Of a DNA stretch of 35,585 bases, positions 599 to 11,899 are shown in pieces (positions within the stretch are counted from its first letter, which is position 1; each line of letters begins with the position of its first letter). Location: positions 1 to 35,585 of the forward strand of contig JAPKXR010000233.1 of assembly GCA_026394715.1 (NCBI GenBank), written 5' to 3'. A program made the position numbers and the translations under genes. This stretch comes from Methanomicrobiales archaeon. GTDB lineage: Archaea > Halobacteriota > Methanomicrobia > Methanomicrobiales > Methanospirillaceae. The notes beneath the pieces were generated by a model. That model was not told where the DNA came from. It worked only from the letters and a program-made list of their open reading frames with translations, and did no database searches.

Positions 599-1026
599 AT
601 CGGGCTGTGACTTCCAGGGGCAAATTACAATTTTTCAACCGGTTGGAAGACACTGCGTCCGTCACAATAAATGGGCATATTTTTAATTCAGGTGCGCGTA
701 AACGTAAATCTCCTTAAAACCGGTACGGCAACGGTAAAAAAACCTAAACATACGTAACAATTTACAGAAAAGGGTACGGAGTCCGAATTTCAAAAGCTGG
801 TGGACACACCCATTTTCTGGTTTTGCCATGTGCCTGGCAACGGCAGGGTGCAGTTAACCCGGACCATTAAAGGCCCGGACCCTACGAAAACAAGGTGTAA
901 TCGGGGTTGTTTTAAAATAAGGCAGATAATTATCTATTACCCGAAAAGGGAAAGAATAACAGACAGAAGGACTCAAAATCTGGGCACTGGCAGGAAGGGA
1001 GTTAGTAACCTGAATAGCGGAGATGT
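599..1026. other. Gene-free AT-rich spacer between artA and the insertion sequence
   Basis: About 430 bases with no convincing gene. The one open frame (about 800-1054) has low-complexity, basic composition, resembles no family I know, and runs into the IS end. Short repeats of cccggacc near 858 and 876 are the only internal structure seen. It is probably a spacer in a region that tolerates insertions. Confidence 0.5.
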
Positions 1027-1036
1027 GGTACACTAC
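1027..1036. repeat. Left terminal inverted repeat of the IS
   Basis: ggtacactac; it is the reverse complement of 2832-2841 and overlaps the transposase stop codon (1033-1035 on the minus strand). Confidence 0.6.
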
Positions 1037-2724
1037 ACCGCCGCAATCCTGTGAACTGCGAAAAGATTTTTCATACCAAGAGCCACAAGTTGATCCTTGA
1101 CATCATTCGTCACGTTGACATAGAAAATCTCTACCTCTTTTCCCAGATTAGCCTCTAATTTCTCAACCCGAGATAACTTTTTTAAAAATTTTGATTCAGA
1201 TAACGTGACATCCTTTGATTCTGATGAATTAATCTTCCAACGAAGAGCTGACAGGAGCCTGTAAGCAAGAGTGGCGATAAAAATAATCGCCCGAACTCTG
1301 GACTCCAACCGATGTCTAATCGGTTTAAGTTCCTCATCTGTCTTAATTGTCCGAAATACCTTTTCGATAAAGTCTTTTTCCATATACATCCTGACTATCT
1401 CCTGGGCTGTGAGCGATTCTTCGGTTGAATAGATGAGAAATTTGCCATCCATCGATTTCGCTTCAGCAACCCTTTTTTCAATAATTGACCAGGAAAAATC
1501 TACGATCGCTTCATTATCAGGATATTCTGTAAGAAAAAAACTGCTCCATCCGCTGAGGGTGCCTTTGATAGCACTTTTCAGATCTTTTTGTGAACTGAAT
1601 CCTCCTTTTTCTTTCAAACGGGTTAATTCATTTGAAATCTCAAAAATAGCCCTGTTTCTTCTAACAAGACTTTTTGTGGCATTTTTTACATTCCGGTACA
1701 CCGCAGCCTCGCAAATCCGGCCAAATAATGGAGCACGGATTTTACATGCATATAACTCCCCTACATTTTTGCATGGAACTATGAATTCGGTCGTCTCTGG
1801 TATTTCCGTAGCCATAACCATTTCTTTTGCATTTTGAGAAATTTTAGGCACTCCGCAAATTACCTTCCAATGCATCCCTTCAAGTGCGTTTACGGTTTTT
1901 TCCGATGTGTTTCCCCTATCCCATATCATCGTACCATCGTGAATTGAAAAATCGGATAATCGAGGTACCAGGTGCTGCATTGTTGTCATCGATGCATGGT
2001 TTCCCGGGTGGACCATATGTGCCAGGGGGTAGTGGTCATATTTTGAAACCAAAAGAGAGAGATTGAATTGTTGATGTCTCCATTTTTCAGCATTATAGCC
2101 TTTTTCTGCTAAAGGACAGGTTTTACTATAAGTCATCATTGAGGTCATATCATAGGCGAGTAATTCTTTCTCACCTTTTGGTAGTGGATTTTTATTACGC
2201 CAGATTGCATAGAGCTCCTCTTCAATAGCTTTCGTATTGTCCTTAATTTTCCCTGTTGCCGGGTCTTCCGAACATACACAGTCCAGGGCCGCATAAAATG
2301 CATCCTTATTGGAACCGTTTAAGGATAATCCGGAAATTTCAGGGAGGATTGTTCCATCGATCCAATCTTCAAGTTGGGTTGCACTTTCCGGTTCCAGGGC
2401 ACGGTTAATTGCCCATAGTGTGAGGAGTTTTCCCGGGCTATTTGCTTTTTTCCTCCCCTTTTTCCCGCAAACCCTATCAATTGTCTCTGCTAAACGCATT
2501 TCCTGAGCAATTTCCCAGAGGACTGAGACATCTCCGGCTCGGGCTGAGCGGTCTGGAGTTTTCCAGTCGATAAGACTCTTTTTTGGAAGAGGTATTTTTT
2601 CATGCTCGCTCTCTACCCCAAGATATCTGACAAACTCACTTTTCACCTTCTTCCCCACTCTGACACTCCGGTATTCACTGAGGTGGATTTTATTGCCTTT
2701 TTTCATACGCCGAATCCAGGTCAT
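1033..2724 (-). CDS. IS1634-like DDE transposase
   Basis: This 563-residue protein catalyses cut-and-paste movement of the surrounding element. It has the IS4-superfamily layout: an N-terminal region with the opening typical of IS1634 relatives (HLSEYRSVRVGKKV), a first catalytic Asp192 in LLAYDMTS, a second Asp269 in IWDRGN, a long beta-strand-rich insertion, and a C-terminal block around Glu454 in the form YMEKDFIEKVFRTIK, corresponding to the YREK signature. The start ATG (2722-2724) lies just upstream of the WIRRMKKGNK segment. No frameshift or stop is seen, so the element may be active. The AT-leaning codon use differs from its neighbours. The family assignment rests on motif pattern only. 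Confidence 0.85.
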   Translation of the reverse strand: MTWIRRMKKGNKIHLSEYRSVRVGKKVKSEFVRYLGVESEHEKIPLPKKSLIDWKTPDRSARAGDVSVLWEIAQEMRLAETIDRVCGKKGRKKANSPGKLLTLWAINRALEPESATQLEDWIDGTILPEISGLSLNGSNKDAFYAALDCVCSEDPATGKIKDNTKAIEEELYAIWRNKNPLPKGEKELLAYDMTSMMTYSKTCPLAEKGYNAEKWRHQQFNLSLLVSKYDHYPLAHMVHPGNHASMTTMQHLVPRLSDFSIHDGTMIWDRGNTSEKTVNALEGMHWKVICGVPKISQNAKEMVMATEIPETTEFIVPCKNVGELYACKIRAPLFGRICEAAVYRNVKNATKSLVRRNRAIFEISNELTRLKEKGGFSSQKDLKSAIKGTLSGWSSFFLTEYPDNEAIVDFSWSIIEKRVAEAKSMDGKFLIYSTEESLTAQEIVRMYMEKDFIEKVFRTIKTDEELKPIRHRLESRVRAIIFIATLAYRLLSALRWKINSSESKDVTLSESKFLKKLSRVEKLEANLGKEVEIFYVNVTNDVKDQLVALGMKNLFAVHRIAAV

Positions 2725-2831
2725 AGTAGTGTACTATTAACGCTACTACTTGATAAGGATTGTGGTTCAATATGGAGTCAATTCATAATACAAAGAATGA
2801 AATGGTTATATCGCGCGATGCAGAAACTCTA

Positions 2832-2841
2832 GTAGTGTACC
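2832..2841. repeat. Right terminal inverted repeat of the IS
   Basis: gtagtgtacc; it is the reverse complement of 1027-1036. Nine of the ten bases (gtagtgtac) recur as a direct copy at 2726-2734. The roughly 95 bases between the two copies hold an AT-rich stretch suited to the transposase promoter (gatataac on the minus strand near 2808-2815). Confidence 0.5.
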
Positions 2842-3208
2842 CAAACTCCTTTGTTCAGGTTAGTAAATGGTAGTGCAATAAGGATAACCCGCTTATTTTT
2901 GGAATAATTGGGTCTGAAAATGGCCGAATATCCCACCTGGGATGACCCGGATTGAACTGGTATTTCCTTCAGGCTTCAGGCTTAAAAAAATTTGATTTTC
3001 CATTCCGGACCCCAAATATAAATATCGAATAACTAATTGCAACTTGACCTGATACATGAAAATACACGCAAAGATTGCATCATTTCCTGATGCAACCCAA
3101 CTTTTCCATTTGGATTTTTTGCTTAAAATTGGATAAGAATTTGACTCTTTTTGGGGCTCTGTAAGTGTGCCAAAAAAACCTTAATACGAAGATTATTTAG
3201 AATTGTCC

Positions 3209-3235
3209 CTCTCTCTAACGAGATAGAGAGTTTTT
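3209..3235 (+). terminator. Hairpin plus T-run
   Basis: The bases ctctctct and agatagagag around the loop aacg can form an imperfect stem, followed directly by ttttt. It has the shape of an intrinsic terminator, but no gene is seen upstream on this strand, so it may be chance or a relic. Confidence 0.25.
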
Positions 3236-3277
3236 ACTCCAAGCATATTTCCACGAAATTCATCAAAAAATCTCTAT

Positions 3278-3424
3278 CGAATTTGACAGTCATCGTGAAT
3301 TCGTGGGAACGCAAGGTCAAAAGTATGTCTAACCAACTTCGATGCCATTAACTCAATAATTATAAGGTGAAATTGGGGTATTTCATCCGGGAATACGTGA
3401 TGATTTACTGAACTGTCAAATTCG
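3278..3424. repeat. 12-base inverted repeat pair around a 123-base centre
   Basis: cgaatttgacag at 3278-3289 is the exact reverse complement of ctgtcaaattcg at 3413-3424, and similarity continues imperfectly inward (catcgtgaattc against catcacgtattc). It could be a miniature transposable element or a relic of IS ends. No transposase is present between the arms. Confidence 0.35.
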
Positions 3425-3857
3425 TTTTCCTGACAAAAAATTGGTGCCGATAGGTAGCATCTTTAGAATGTTATGGATCAGACTGGCAAACTTGGGATGC
3501 AAAAATCCAATACGATTTTTTTTGTGGGTGTGTGGGGTCTGTACAGTACTGATTCAATATTGAAATGATACCCCGAATGACAGTCTGGCGGGATTATTGT
3601 GTTGAAGCGTGACGTGCCGTTTGAGGGGACCATTTGTTTATTCTCCTAGTGAATGTTTAGACCAAAACCAATCATAAAAGAATCCGAACCGGCATTTTCG
3701 CATGTTTCTGGTGTGAAAGCGTAAGCGTTCATGCCCGTTCCAATGTGTTACCGATACCCGGGCTATACTACGAAGGTGGGACCGCCCTTTTCCGTTTCCG
3801 CCCTATATATTCCACAAATAAAAAAAGTAACGGGGCGGTACCAATGCGTTCGTAATT

Positions 3858-8550: not shown

Positions 8551-8973
8551 TTGACCAGCGAAAAAGAACTGATGCGCATTGGGATATCCCTGCCAAAGAA
8601 CCTGCTTGACAAGTTTGACGAAATAATAAATTATCGTGGATATTCATCACGTTCCGAAGGGATCCGGGATGCTATCAGAAGTTACATTACCCATTATAAA
8701 TGGATGTCAGATGTGAAGGGAGAAAGGCAGGGAGTTATCACCATGATCTATGACCATGGGCAACGGGGACTTCTTACCACCCTGACTGATATCCAGCACG
8801 AATTTATTTCGATCGTTCAGGCATCACTGCATTCCCATGTCACGCATGGTCGCTGCCTTGAAGTAATTCTCGTGAGAGGGGATGGTTCGCAGCTGAAATC
8901 TCTCGCTGAACGGCTGATGTCTCAAAAGGGTGTGGAATCGGTAAAATTAACGACTATTATGGTACGTGAATAA
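8551..8973 (+). CDS. nikR: NikR-family nickel-responsive transcriptional regulator
   Basis: This nickel-sensing ribbon-helix-helix repressor controls nickel uptake genes. With the TTG start it is 140 residues: an RHH DNA-binding segment at about 8-48 (MRIGISLPKNLLDKF, then SRSEGIRDAIRSY) and a C-terminal ACT-like metal domain. The four square-planar nickel ligands are all present as His83, His94, His96 and Cys102, with the same 11-2-6 spacing as His76, His87, His89 and Cys95 of Escherichia coli NikR. It lies immediately before the cbiM-cbiN-cbiO-cbiQ transporter genes on the same strand, which supports a nickel role and autogenous or local control. Start choice is uncertain (8515 GTG, 8551 TTG or 8572 ATG); the family identity is not. 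Confidence 0.92.
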   Translation: MTSEKELMRIGISLPKNLLDKFDEIINYRGYSSRSEGIRDAIRSYITHYKWMSDVKGERQGVITMIYDHGQRGLLTTLTDIQHEFISIVQASLHSHVTHGRCLEVILVRGDGSQLKSLAERLMSQKGVESVKLTTIMVRE

Positions 8974-9105: not shown

Positions 9106-9155
9106 GATACTTTTAAAATATTAAATTAAAAACTATTAATACCTCTAAAGTATTA
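9106..9155 (+). promoter_or_regulatory. Promoter and candidate nickel operator before cbiM
   Basis: An AT-rich TATA-like run (acttttaaaatattaaa, about 9110-9126) is followed by the perfect inverted repeat taatac-N7-gtatta at 9137-9142 and 9150-9155. It lies some 37 bases before the cbiM ATG, where a repressor would block transcription start. NikR sites are palindromic half-sites, but this spacing is shorter than the enterobacterial operator, so binding is only inferred. Confidence 0.35.
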
Positions 9156-9191
9156 CAAATTATTTTAATTGTGCTACTTATGTGGACTTAC

Positions 9192-9848
9192 ATGCACATA
9201 GCTGGTGCATTTATCCCGATAAGGCAGGGCGGAATCTCCTGGGCGATTGCCCCTGGTCTTTGTGTACCTCTCCATACGGTGGGCAAAGAACGAGTTAAAC
9301 GAGGGAGAACTGCCCCTTGTTGCAGTGCTTGCAGCGGGAATTTTTGCGCTCCAGTCTTTCAACCTTCCCGTCTCGATGGGGATAAGCGGGCACCTGGTAG
9401 GCGGGGCACTGGTCGCAATTATCCTTGGTTCCCCCTTTGCTGCGGTCTTCATCCTTACGCTGGTGCTGATTGTCCAGGGTATTCATGTTCGGTAATGGTG
9501 GGATCACGACAATGGGCGTAAACATCCTCAACATGGGTGCAGTTGGTGGTTTTGTCGGGTTCTACAGCTTCAAAGGACTGAAAGCGGCAACCCGGAGCGT
9601 GCCGGTGTCCGCGTTCATCGCCGCATGGCTGGCCTGTTTAATTCCTGCGCTCTGTGCGTCTGTTGAACTCTGGCTTGCCGGGACCTTCCCGCTCGAGGCC
9701 GGCCTGGTTGCAATGGGAATTTACCATTGCGATCATCGGCGTCATCGAGGGTACCGTTACGGTCGCCGCCATTTACCTGATTATGAATGTCCGGCCTGAC
9801 ATGGTTGATGAAGGTCTGTTGCCTGCAAAAGGTGGTGCAGTGGCATGA
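9192..9848 (+). pseudogene. cbiM: Nickel/cobalt ECF transporter substrate-capture protein CbiM/NikM, three frameshifts
   Basis: CbiM binds the metal ion in the membrane as the S component of the nickel ECF transporter. The reading starts at the ATG 9192 with Met-His-Ile, the N-terminus whose His2 binds metal in NikM. Frame then shifts by +1 three times: in the cccc run at 9250-9253, near 9483, and around 9715-9722. Joined across the shifts, the protein reads MHIAGAFIPI..., LVFVYLSIRWAKNELNEGEL, FGNGGITTMGVNILNMGAVGG and FTIAIIGVIEGTVTVAA, a full-length CbiM with conserved helices. Each segment stays close to the family, so the lesions are very recent or are sequence errors. The final frame ends overlapping cbiN by four bases, as in intact operons. 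As written, no functional protein could be made. Confidence 0.85.
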
Positions 9849-10178
9849 TCGATAAGAAACCCCTGATTGCAGGTGGACCAATCCTCGCAATTTTTATAGG
9901 GGTTTTCGCCGTGTTCTTTGCATCGGGTGACCCGGATGGCCTGGAAAGTACCGCACTGATCATCCAGGGTGGGAAGATTCTGACCTGCCCTACTCCACCA
10001 GATGCAGAAATTGAGGGGAATATGGAAGGTAAGTCTGCTTATTCAGCTCCGCGGACTGATTATTCTCTCGGTGAAGGAAGTGGTCCGGGCGAGGGAATTC
10101 TGGCAATTTTCGGGGGGAACGGTCCTGGCAATCCTCGTTGCCATTGGCGTGGTATATGCATTAAAGGGTCGCAGGTAA
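9845..10178 (+). pseudogene. cbiN: Nickel/cobalt ECF transporter accessory membrane protein CbiN (PDGLE type), one frameshift
   Basis: CbiN is the small two-helix partner of CbiM that carries the PDGLE motif. The first frame gives a membrane helix (GPILAIFIGVFAVFF) followed by DPDGLESTAL, then MEGKSAYSAPRTDYSLGE. In the gggggg run at 10112-10117 one extra base shifts the frame. Removing one G restores GGTVLAILVAIGVVYALKG, the second helix, and a stop at 10176-10178. Without that correction the frame runs on into unrelated sequence to 10264 and overlaps the start of cbiO. ATG overlaps the cbiM stop (atga, 9845-9848), indicating translational coupling when both were intact. Confidence 0.8.
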
Positions 10179-10205
10179 GAAAAACCTACCCAAGGCAAAC
10201 CAATA

Positions 10206-10241
10206 GACATTTAATTTTTCTAATCCCAGTTCTCTCCACTC
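10206..10241 (+). promoter_or_regulatory. Possible separate promoter for cbiO-cbiQ
   Basis: The 63-base gap after cbiN holds a TATA-like catttaattttt (about 10207-10218), centred roughly 27 bases before the cbiO ATG with no ribosome binding site. That is the leaderless pattern seen elsewhere in this window, so cbiOQ may be expressed apart from cbiMN. Confidence 0.4.
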
Positions 10242-11075
10242 ATGCATCTTATCGAAACCCGTGATCTCTGTTATACATATCCTGGCAATGTCACAGCACT
10301 TCATCATGTCAATTTTATTGCCCCACGAAAAGCACGTATCGCCGTAATCGGGTCCAATGGTGCGGGTAAGAGTACACTTTTCAAACATTTTAACGGAATT
10401 TTTAAACCCACCTCGGGATCGGTGTTGGTCCAGGGTGAACCGATCACCAAAGAAAATATCCGTAACGTCCGTAAATTTGTCGGTATTGTATTCCAGAACC
10501 CTGATGACCAGATTTTTTCACCGACGGTAGAACAGGATATTGCATTCGGCCCCACGAACCTGGGCCTCGATGAGGAAATCGTACAGCACCGTGTCTGTGA
10601 AGCGCTCCGTATTGTCGGTATTGAACACCTTGCAAACCGTGTCCCACATCACTTGAGCGGCGGTGAAAAGAAACGGGTCGCCATTGCCGGTGTGGTGGCT
10701 ATGGAACCGCAGGTACTGGTCCTTGATGAACCAACTGCAGGCCTTGACCCCCAGGGTGTGCGTGATTTTAACAATTTTTGCAATTCCCTCTCCCAAAAGT
10801 ACGGCCTCACCGTGATCTTTTCAACCCACGATGTCTCCCTTGTACCTGAAATCGCCGATTACGTGTATGTAATGAATAAGGGGGCCATTGTAGCGTCCGG
10901 GACCATCGAAGAGATCTTTGTTCAGATGGAGATGCTCCAGTCAGTCCGGCTCGATGTACCGGTATTACCTAAATTAATTCGTTCCCTCCAGGAGCATGGT
11001 GTCGATATCAACATGGGATATACCTTTGGCGAAGTGGAAGCGGTATTCCTCGAGGCATTTGGGAAGAAGGCATGA
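10242..11075 (+). CDS. cbiO: Nickel/cobalt ECF transporter ATPase CbiO
   Basis: This ATPase powers uptake of Ni or Co by the ECF transporter. The 277-residue protein has an intact ABC core: Walker A GSNGAGKST (37-45), Q-loop Gln85 in VFQNPDDQIFSPTVEQD, signature LSGGE (138-142), Walker B VLVLDEP (158-164) with catalytic Glu, and the switch His in STHD. The IFSPTVEQDIAFGP stretch is typical of ECF-type ATPases. It overlaps cbiQ by four bases. Unlike the two genes before it, it carries no frameshift. Nickel rather than cobalt is suggested by the adjacent nikR. Confidence 0.95.
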   Translation: MHLIETRDLCYTYPGNVTALHHVNFIAPRKARIAVIGSNGAGKSTLFKHFNGIFKPTSGSVLVQGEPITKENIRNVRKFVGIVFQNPDDQIFSPTVEQDIAFGPTNLGLDEEIVQHRVCEALRIVGIEHLANRVPHHLSGGEKKRVAIAGVVAMEPQVLVLDEPTAGLDPQGVRDFNNFCNSLSQKYGLTVIFSTHDVSLVPEIADYVYVMNKGAIVASGTIEEIFVQMEMLQSVRLDVPVLPKLIRSLQEHGVDINMGYTFGEVEAVFLEAFGKKA

Positions 11076-11899
11076 TCGAAGAACTGTTTGACATCGAACG
11101 GTACGCCTACCGTGACAGCATTATGCACCGGCTTGATGCAAGGGCCAAGATCATCGTGGTGTTTGCCACCATCATCGCGATAGTCTCGGTACCTTATTCT
11201 CCCATAGTACTCACAATCGGAACGATTTTTTTTGTTTTTTTCATCGTGCTCTGGGCACTCACCGGGTTGTCCCCCGTGGTGTACCTGAAGCGTGCCTTGT
11301 TAATCATACCCCTGTGGGGCATTGTCATCCTGTTCCAGATATTTATTAAAAACCCCTATTACACCGAATACACGACGGTGGTTGCCCTGCCGTTCGGGAT
11401 CAATATTTACGCTGAATCTATCCAGTTTGCGTTCATCCTGCTGGTAAAATTTATTGTTACTATCTCATTCATTATCCTCCTCTCATCGACGACCAAGGTG
11501 CAGGACCTGCTTGATGGCGGAAGAAGGCTCGGGCTGCCCGCAGAATTTGCACTTGCCCTTGGTATGATGGTCCGTTACCTGTTTGTCTTTGGCTACATGT
11601 ACCGGAAGATCGTCCAGACGCTTGAGACCAAGGCGTTCGACCCGTTTGACCGGAACCTTCCCTATCGCTACCGGATGCGCCAGATCGGGTATACCATCGG
11701 GACCATGTTCATCAGGTCATACGAGCAGGGGGAGCGTGTCTACACAAGCATGCTTTGCCGGGGATATGGCCGGCACAGCCACCTCTTCTTAAAGAAAAAA
11801 GGATTTAAATTTTCGGAATGGATATTTCTCGCAGTCTGCTTAGGGTTTATTATCATTATCCCGGTAACGGTCTGGTTGAAACAGGTATCCTGGTTCTGA
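11072..11899 (+). CDS. cbiQ: Nickel/cobalt ECF transporter permease CbiQ (T component)
   Basis: CbiQ is the transmembrane coupling subunit that links the ATPase to the substrate-capture protein. Its 275 residues show several strong hydrophobic helices (for example IIVVFATIIAIVSV near 27-40 and IFLAVCLGFIIIIPVTVW near the end). The cytoplasmic coupling-helix region carries LETKAFDP and SMLCRGYGR, matching the paired short motifs of T components. It is coupled to cbiO through the overlapping atga and lies last in the nickel block. Length is usual and the frame is intact. Confidence 0.93.
   Translation: MIEELFDIERYAYRDSIMHRLDARAKIIVVFATIIAIVSVPYSPIVLTIGTIFFVFFIVLWALTGLSPVVYLKRALLIIPLWGIVILFQIFIKNPYYTEYTTVVALPFGINIYAESIQFAFILLVKFIVTISFIILLSSTTKVQDLLDGGRRLGLPAEFALALGMMVRYLFVFGYMYRKIVQTLETKAFDPFDRNLPYRYRMRQIGYTIGTMFIRSYEQGERVYTSMLCRGYGRHSHLFLKKKGFKFSEWIFLAVCLGFIIIIPVTVWLKQVSWF

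Follow-up and report, generated by a model that had tools for sequence, protein, structure and literature searches.

Does a methanogen that needs nickel lack the substrate-capture component of its nickel transporter? This question arose from the window analyzed here, a stretch of 35,585 nucleotides that is the entire contig C11 of draft genome G000 (3.25 Mb in 402 contigs; 98% complete, 0.9% contamination), in which the two S-component genes of an ECF transporter operon are broken. The mcrA gene was found in this genome, which marks the organism as a methanogen that needs nickel. The evidence below favors, with a probability of roughly 0.78, a reading in which nikM and nikN are recent pseudogenes of a redundant S component, decaying neutrally at the locus of a NikR-associated nickel ECF operon.

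Organization of the locus and gene names

The nearest relatives were the uncultured Methanomicrobiales bins G001 (locus contig C216, CAIJED010000216) and G002 (C46, CAIKOD010000046), both of which carry the orthologous nikR-nikMN-cbiOQ locus intact. The features of the window copy are as follows.

8551..8973, + strand: intact nikR of 140 aa, read from a conserved ATG, a nickel-responsive regulator of the ribbon-helix-helix type (Pfam NikR_C 8e-30, RHH_1; NCBIfam NF002169 above cut-off)
9149..9176, + strand: probable NikR operator, 7-14-7 inverted repeat GTATTAC-N14-GTGCTAC, 12/14 against a perfect palindrome
9192..9847, + strand: nikM (first annotated as cbiM), probable pseudogene with three +1 insertions and missense losses (PF01891 in two frames)
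9845..10206, + strand: nikN (PDGLE domain; first annotated as cbiN), probable pseudogene with two +1 insertions (PF13190 1.5e-11, broken frame)
10242..11075, + strand: cbiO/nikO, ECF ATPase, intact and constrained (NF010171 above cut-off; 0/88 invariant residues lost)
11072..11899, + strand: cbiQ/nikQ, ECF T component, intact and constrained (PF02361 3e-33, TIGR02454 above cut-off; 0/83 invariant residues lost)

The T component and ATPase were intact and above curated cut-offs, while PF01891 was recovered only as pieces in different frames, so that no intact CbiM/NikM-family S component is encoded at the locus as printed. For NikN, PF13190 covers the 5′ part only, and the frameshift removes the second hydrophobic segment.

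Although the first-pass annotation had called the broken genes cbiM and cbiN, the names nikM and nikN fit better, since nikR lies beside them and the second, smaller gene has its Pfam match in PDGLE (PF13190), the NikN family. Pfam CbiN (PF02553) gave no match in the small gene of the window, and within G000 it matched contig C397 only. The NCBIfam PRK06287 models label the PDGLE/NikN family CbiN, and all fell below cut-off here. In a survey of nickel and cobalt systems, NikN and CbiN were without significant similarity (PMC2667541). With nikR adjacent, the 7-14-7 repeat upstream as a putative operator, and a PDGLE NikN, the operon is best called nickel-type, nikMN-cbiOQ. The nikR orthologues of G001 and G002 are 94-95% identical to the window copy, and the repeat upstream of nikM is a perfect palindrome in both congeners. 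Operator decay was set aside as evidence because the window score of 12/14 lies inside the range of other species' copies (8-14).

Five single-base insertions in nikM and nikN

The window nikMN was aligned with seven congeneric copies, namely the locus copies of G001 and G002 and five stand-alone copies. Exactly five window-only columns were present in nikMN, each of one base, and no window deletion was found in this alignment.

9250..9253, + strand: insertion 1, extra C, CCCC against CCC in 7/7 congeneric copies
9482..9483, + strand: insertion 2, extra T, GGTATTCATG against GGTATCATG-type
9727..9728, + strand: insertion 3, extra T, CCATTGC against CCATGC
about 10107..10117, + strand: insertion 4, one base added within TTTTCGGGGGG, most simply a G, although its identity is ambiguous
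10163..10168, + strand: insertion 5, extra base within AAAGGG near the 3′ end of nikN, altering the NikN C-terminus

The four +1 frameshifts originally reported are real features of the sequence, are single extra bases, and are confined to these two genes, and a fifth near the 3′ end of nikN raises the count to five. At least two had been placed in homopolymers (CCCC at 9250-9253 and a G run at 10112-10117), which holds for the first, while at the second the inserted base is ambiguous. Every insertion can be read as a short run lengthened by one base, which at 9482 and 9727 amounts merely to a T becoming a TT. Downstream of insertion 5, the window returns to the frame of its congeners and ends in KANQ-stop, as in both orthologues, the congeneric nikN frame ending at about 10206. 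As printed, the frame from ATG 9192 encodes 109 aa, of which about 20 are native, and that from ATG 9845 encodes 139 aa, of which about 88 are native. The overlap of the two genes (ATG/TGA), recorded in the first-pass annotation, is present. These disruptions are without counterpart in the orthologues, and NikM was full length in 59/59 other different sequences examined from the order. Apparent stops in NikM or NikN of some relatives (L039, L015, L052) were rejected as breakage, as they sit at the very end of the protein and resemble ordinary termination points.

That all five indels are insertions was unexpected and counts against the pseudogene reading, since five of five would occur by chance at 0.2-1% if insertions make up 30-40% of pseudogene indels, and at 0.2-3% over shares of 30-50%; a literature search on pseudogene indel spectra returned no match giving the usual insertion share in archaea. 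The same uniformity would suit a patch of clustered errors, made in sequencing or assembly, over a nikMN that is intact in the living cell, and the draft state of the assembly fits that explanation as well, although two of the insertions yield merely a doublet. The C4 and G6 runs at two of the sites also bring to mind ribosomal or transcriptional slippage, by which the frame would be restored and NikMN still made. However, this would take five separate events within about 920 bases, the extra bases are present in 0/7 congeneric copies, and NikM is damaged at invariant residues too, so that slippage is very improbable.

Frameshift background elsewhere in the genome

No single-base frameshift was found in the rest of the window, where aligning congener genes lie in single frames, and nikR, cbiO, cbiQ, gyrB, and gyrA are all intact, as had been noted at the outset. 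An error process would have had to strike nikMN alone, whereas the other G/C runs of at least 6 in the window break no gene. A codon-based scan of sampled other contigs of G000 (146 kb, 107 kb of it predicted coding), a method that can miss shifts in short segments, gave two spots that resemble frameshifts, but at neither was a shift by a single base clear. One lies beside a stretch of ~110 bases that is absent here and present in G002, and the other lies within a repeated, fragmentary family.

At the first spot (C330, L120, about 2570), a U32-family-peptidase-like gene switches frame where G002 carries the ~110 extra bases, and a deletion may have turned it into another pseudogene of this genome. 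At the second (C360, L121, 400-1100 and 2868-5502), nucleotide-sugar-dehydrogenase-like fragments have broken frames; such fragments recur many times, also on C353 and C122 of G000 and on C359, C343, and C218 of G001, and were not found in G002 or G003. Within the window itself, an intact 563-aa ORF at 1033-2724 looks like an IS-element transposase and lies in a region (600-3854) without alignment to G001 C216.

Loss of invariant residues in NikM

Window NikM was compared with the 59 other different sequences of the same order, and 5/60 residues invariant among those 59 were lost (P4A, D5G, Y16S, T64I, D101N). This is the highest count of any copy, the next having 3 and the median being 0. By alignment, three of the lost residues lie in motifs that the solved NikM2 structure 4M58 also has: P4 in MHIP, T64 in GTxxH, and D101 in FGDGG. 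In this family, Met1, His2, and His67, near these residues, form the metal site. CbiO and CbiQ lost none of their invariant residues (0/171 together; Fisher p = 0.001 against NikM); had they lost them as often as NikM, about 14 would have changed. At the invariant positions of NikN, the window copy was not an outlier, which counts against the pseudogene reading.

A three-branch dN/dS comparison of the window, G001, and G002 orthologues was tried as a test of relaxed selection and rejected, as it did not separate the window from the intact G001 copy, whose nikM branch is no slower, and the trio does not look tree-like for nikM. Invariant-residue losses were used instead, and on these residues the constraint on window NikM appears to have been relaxed. 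Pairwise dN/dS of window nikM was 0.04-0.10 and synonymous changes dominate most of the gene, indicating that selection maintained the gene until recently.

Such recent selection would also be seen if the insertions were sequence errors. Errors, however, would also need to have hit five invariant residues of NikM and none of the 171 in the adjoining cbiOQ. The suggestion of clustered errors in the first-pass annotation is accordingly judged less likely because of these missense losses, though it is the main rival to the pseudogene reading.

Other nikMN copies in the genome and genus

A second nickel transporter (another CbiM/NikM or NikABCDE) had been proposed as something to look for elsewhere in the genome, and further CbiM-family genes were found. 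Four CbiM-family genes lie outside the window, on C397, C59, C96, and C388, and all are intact. Contig C96 carries a stand-alone nikMN, 86% identical to the window copy and followed by its own nikR, and this copy keeps the MHIP, GTxxH, and FGDGG residues that are mutated in the window. It is the intact counterpart that a pseudogene reading predicts. Loss of the S component, one of the two alternatives first put forward, is supported for the window locus, but the nickel-capture crisis that this seemed to imply is not, since the intact C96 copy indicates that the organism itself has not lost nickel capture.

The remaining three copies differ in context. Contig C388 carries a second stand-alone nikMN pair, C397 carries a CbiM in a cobalt-type operon with Pfam CbiN and CbiQ, and C59 (L080 17-921) carries a more distant relative of NikM followed by a small partner gene, with no cbiOQ on the contig. 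The other three genomes of the genus gave no CbiM hit equivalent to the C59 gene. Over 2045 bases of C388 (L078, 3448-5492), nikMN included, the sequence is 100% identical to the end of G002 contig C182, though the two species differ by about 15%, so that C388 may have been binned with the wrong genome or transferred very recently. Because its origin is doubtful, the argument for a backup rests on C96, whose best relative, G001 C190, is 82% identical, a normal distance.

Stand-alone nikMN pairs are present in all four genomes of the genus (G000 C96, G001 C190, G002 C182, G003 C59), with cbiOQ beside them in 0/4. In the tree, the nikMN copies of the genus form one clade (100/100), with the window copy sister to the intact G001 locus copy, which places the duplication of nikMN within the genus. 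The locus copy of nikM in G002 (C46, L082 863-1513) groups with the stand-alone copies and apart from the remaining locus copies; one guess as to its placement is gene conversion between the two kinds of nikMN pair.

Probable loss of a redundant S component and proposed use of CbiOQ in trans

These results are consistent with neutral decay of nikMN in a Methanoregulaceae lineage through five one-base insertions and missense changes at invariant residues, a loss that would have been tolerated through the prior duplication of nikMN in the genus. Only two CbiQ genes are present in G000, that of the window and that of C397. Since the latter sits in the cobalt-type operon, the C96 NikMN probably relies in trans on the window CbiOQ, as judged from the gene inventory of a draft genome of 402 contigs. 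The stand-alone C96 NikMN, with its own nikR, would then work with a CbiOQ that is still under selection, and such use would explain why cbiOQ remains constrained. The earlier idea that cbiOQ might serve another S component fits this arrangement. Across the genus, a division of the dedicated group I nickel ECF transporter is conceivable at somewhat below even odds, in which a stand-alone, NikR-associated nikMN feeds the CbiOQ of the old operon and one species has discarded the operon's own nikMN.

In a variant of this reading, the whole nikR-nikMN-cbiOQ operon is on its way out, with cbiOQ merely not decayed yet and no use in trans. The loss of nikMN is recent on the sequence scale, and untranslated nikMN could lower cbiOQ expression through polarity, both of which suit such a course. 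Against it, the losses expected in cbiOQ at the NikM rate are missing altogether, and among the three orthologues N/S is lowest on the window branches of cbiO and cbiQ, making decay of the whole operon unlikely. Some 25-30 bases 5′ of the cbiO start, at about 10209-10219, lies an AT-rich ATTTAATTTTT that G002 shares; judging from its position, it could act as an archaeal promoter within the operon and spare cbiOQ from polarity.

Comparison with known systems

Read as the loss of a redundant S-component copy, the locus no longer poses the apparent paradox of a methanogen that depends on nickel yet has no S component to capture it. It also points to a case, open to testing, in which a duplicated S component shares the energizing module of a group I ECF transporter, and cautions that a single broken operon in a draft genome can mislead about the loss of a transporter where stand-alone paralogues exist.

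The locus resembles the group I NikMNQO/CbiMNQO ECF transporters of methanogens (PMC2667541, PMC10617489) in its nikM-nikN-cbiO-cbiQ order, NikR neighbor, operator-like repeat, and PDGLE NikN, but differs in that nikM and nikN are broken in the window and the matching S component is found elsewhere as a stand-alone nikMN. Window NikM belongs to the CbiM/NikM family and aligns with NikM2 (4M58/4M5B) over nearly the full length, including the MHIP, GTxxH, and FGDGG motifs; unlike NikM2, it is mutated in all three motifs and frameshifted. Small indels, missense changes, and an intact paralogue are shared with ordinary prokaryotic pseudogenes of duplicated genes, from which the window copy departs in that its indels are all insertions (5/5). 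The case as a whole is most likely one of ordinary evolution by loss of a redundant copy, its distinctive point being a dedicated ECF module that is apparently served in trans.
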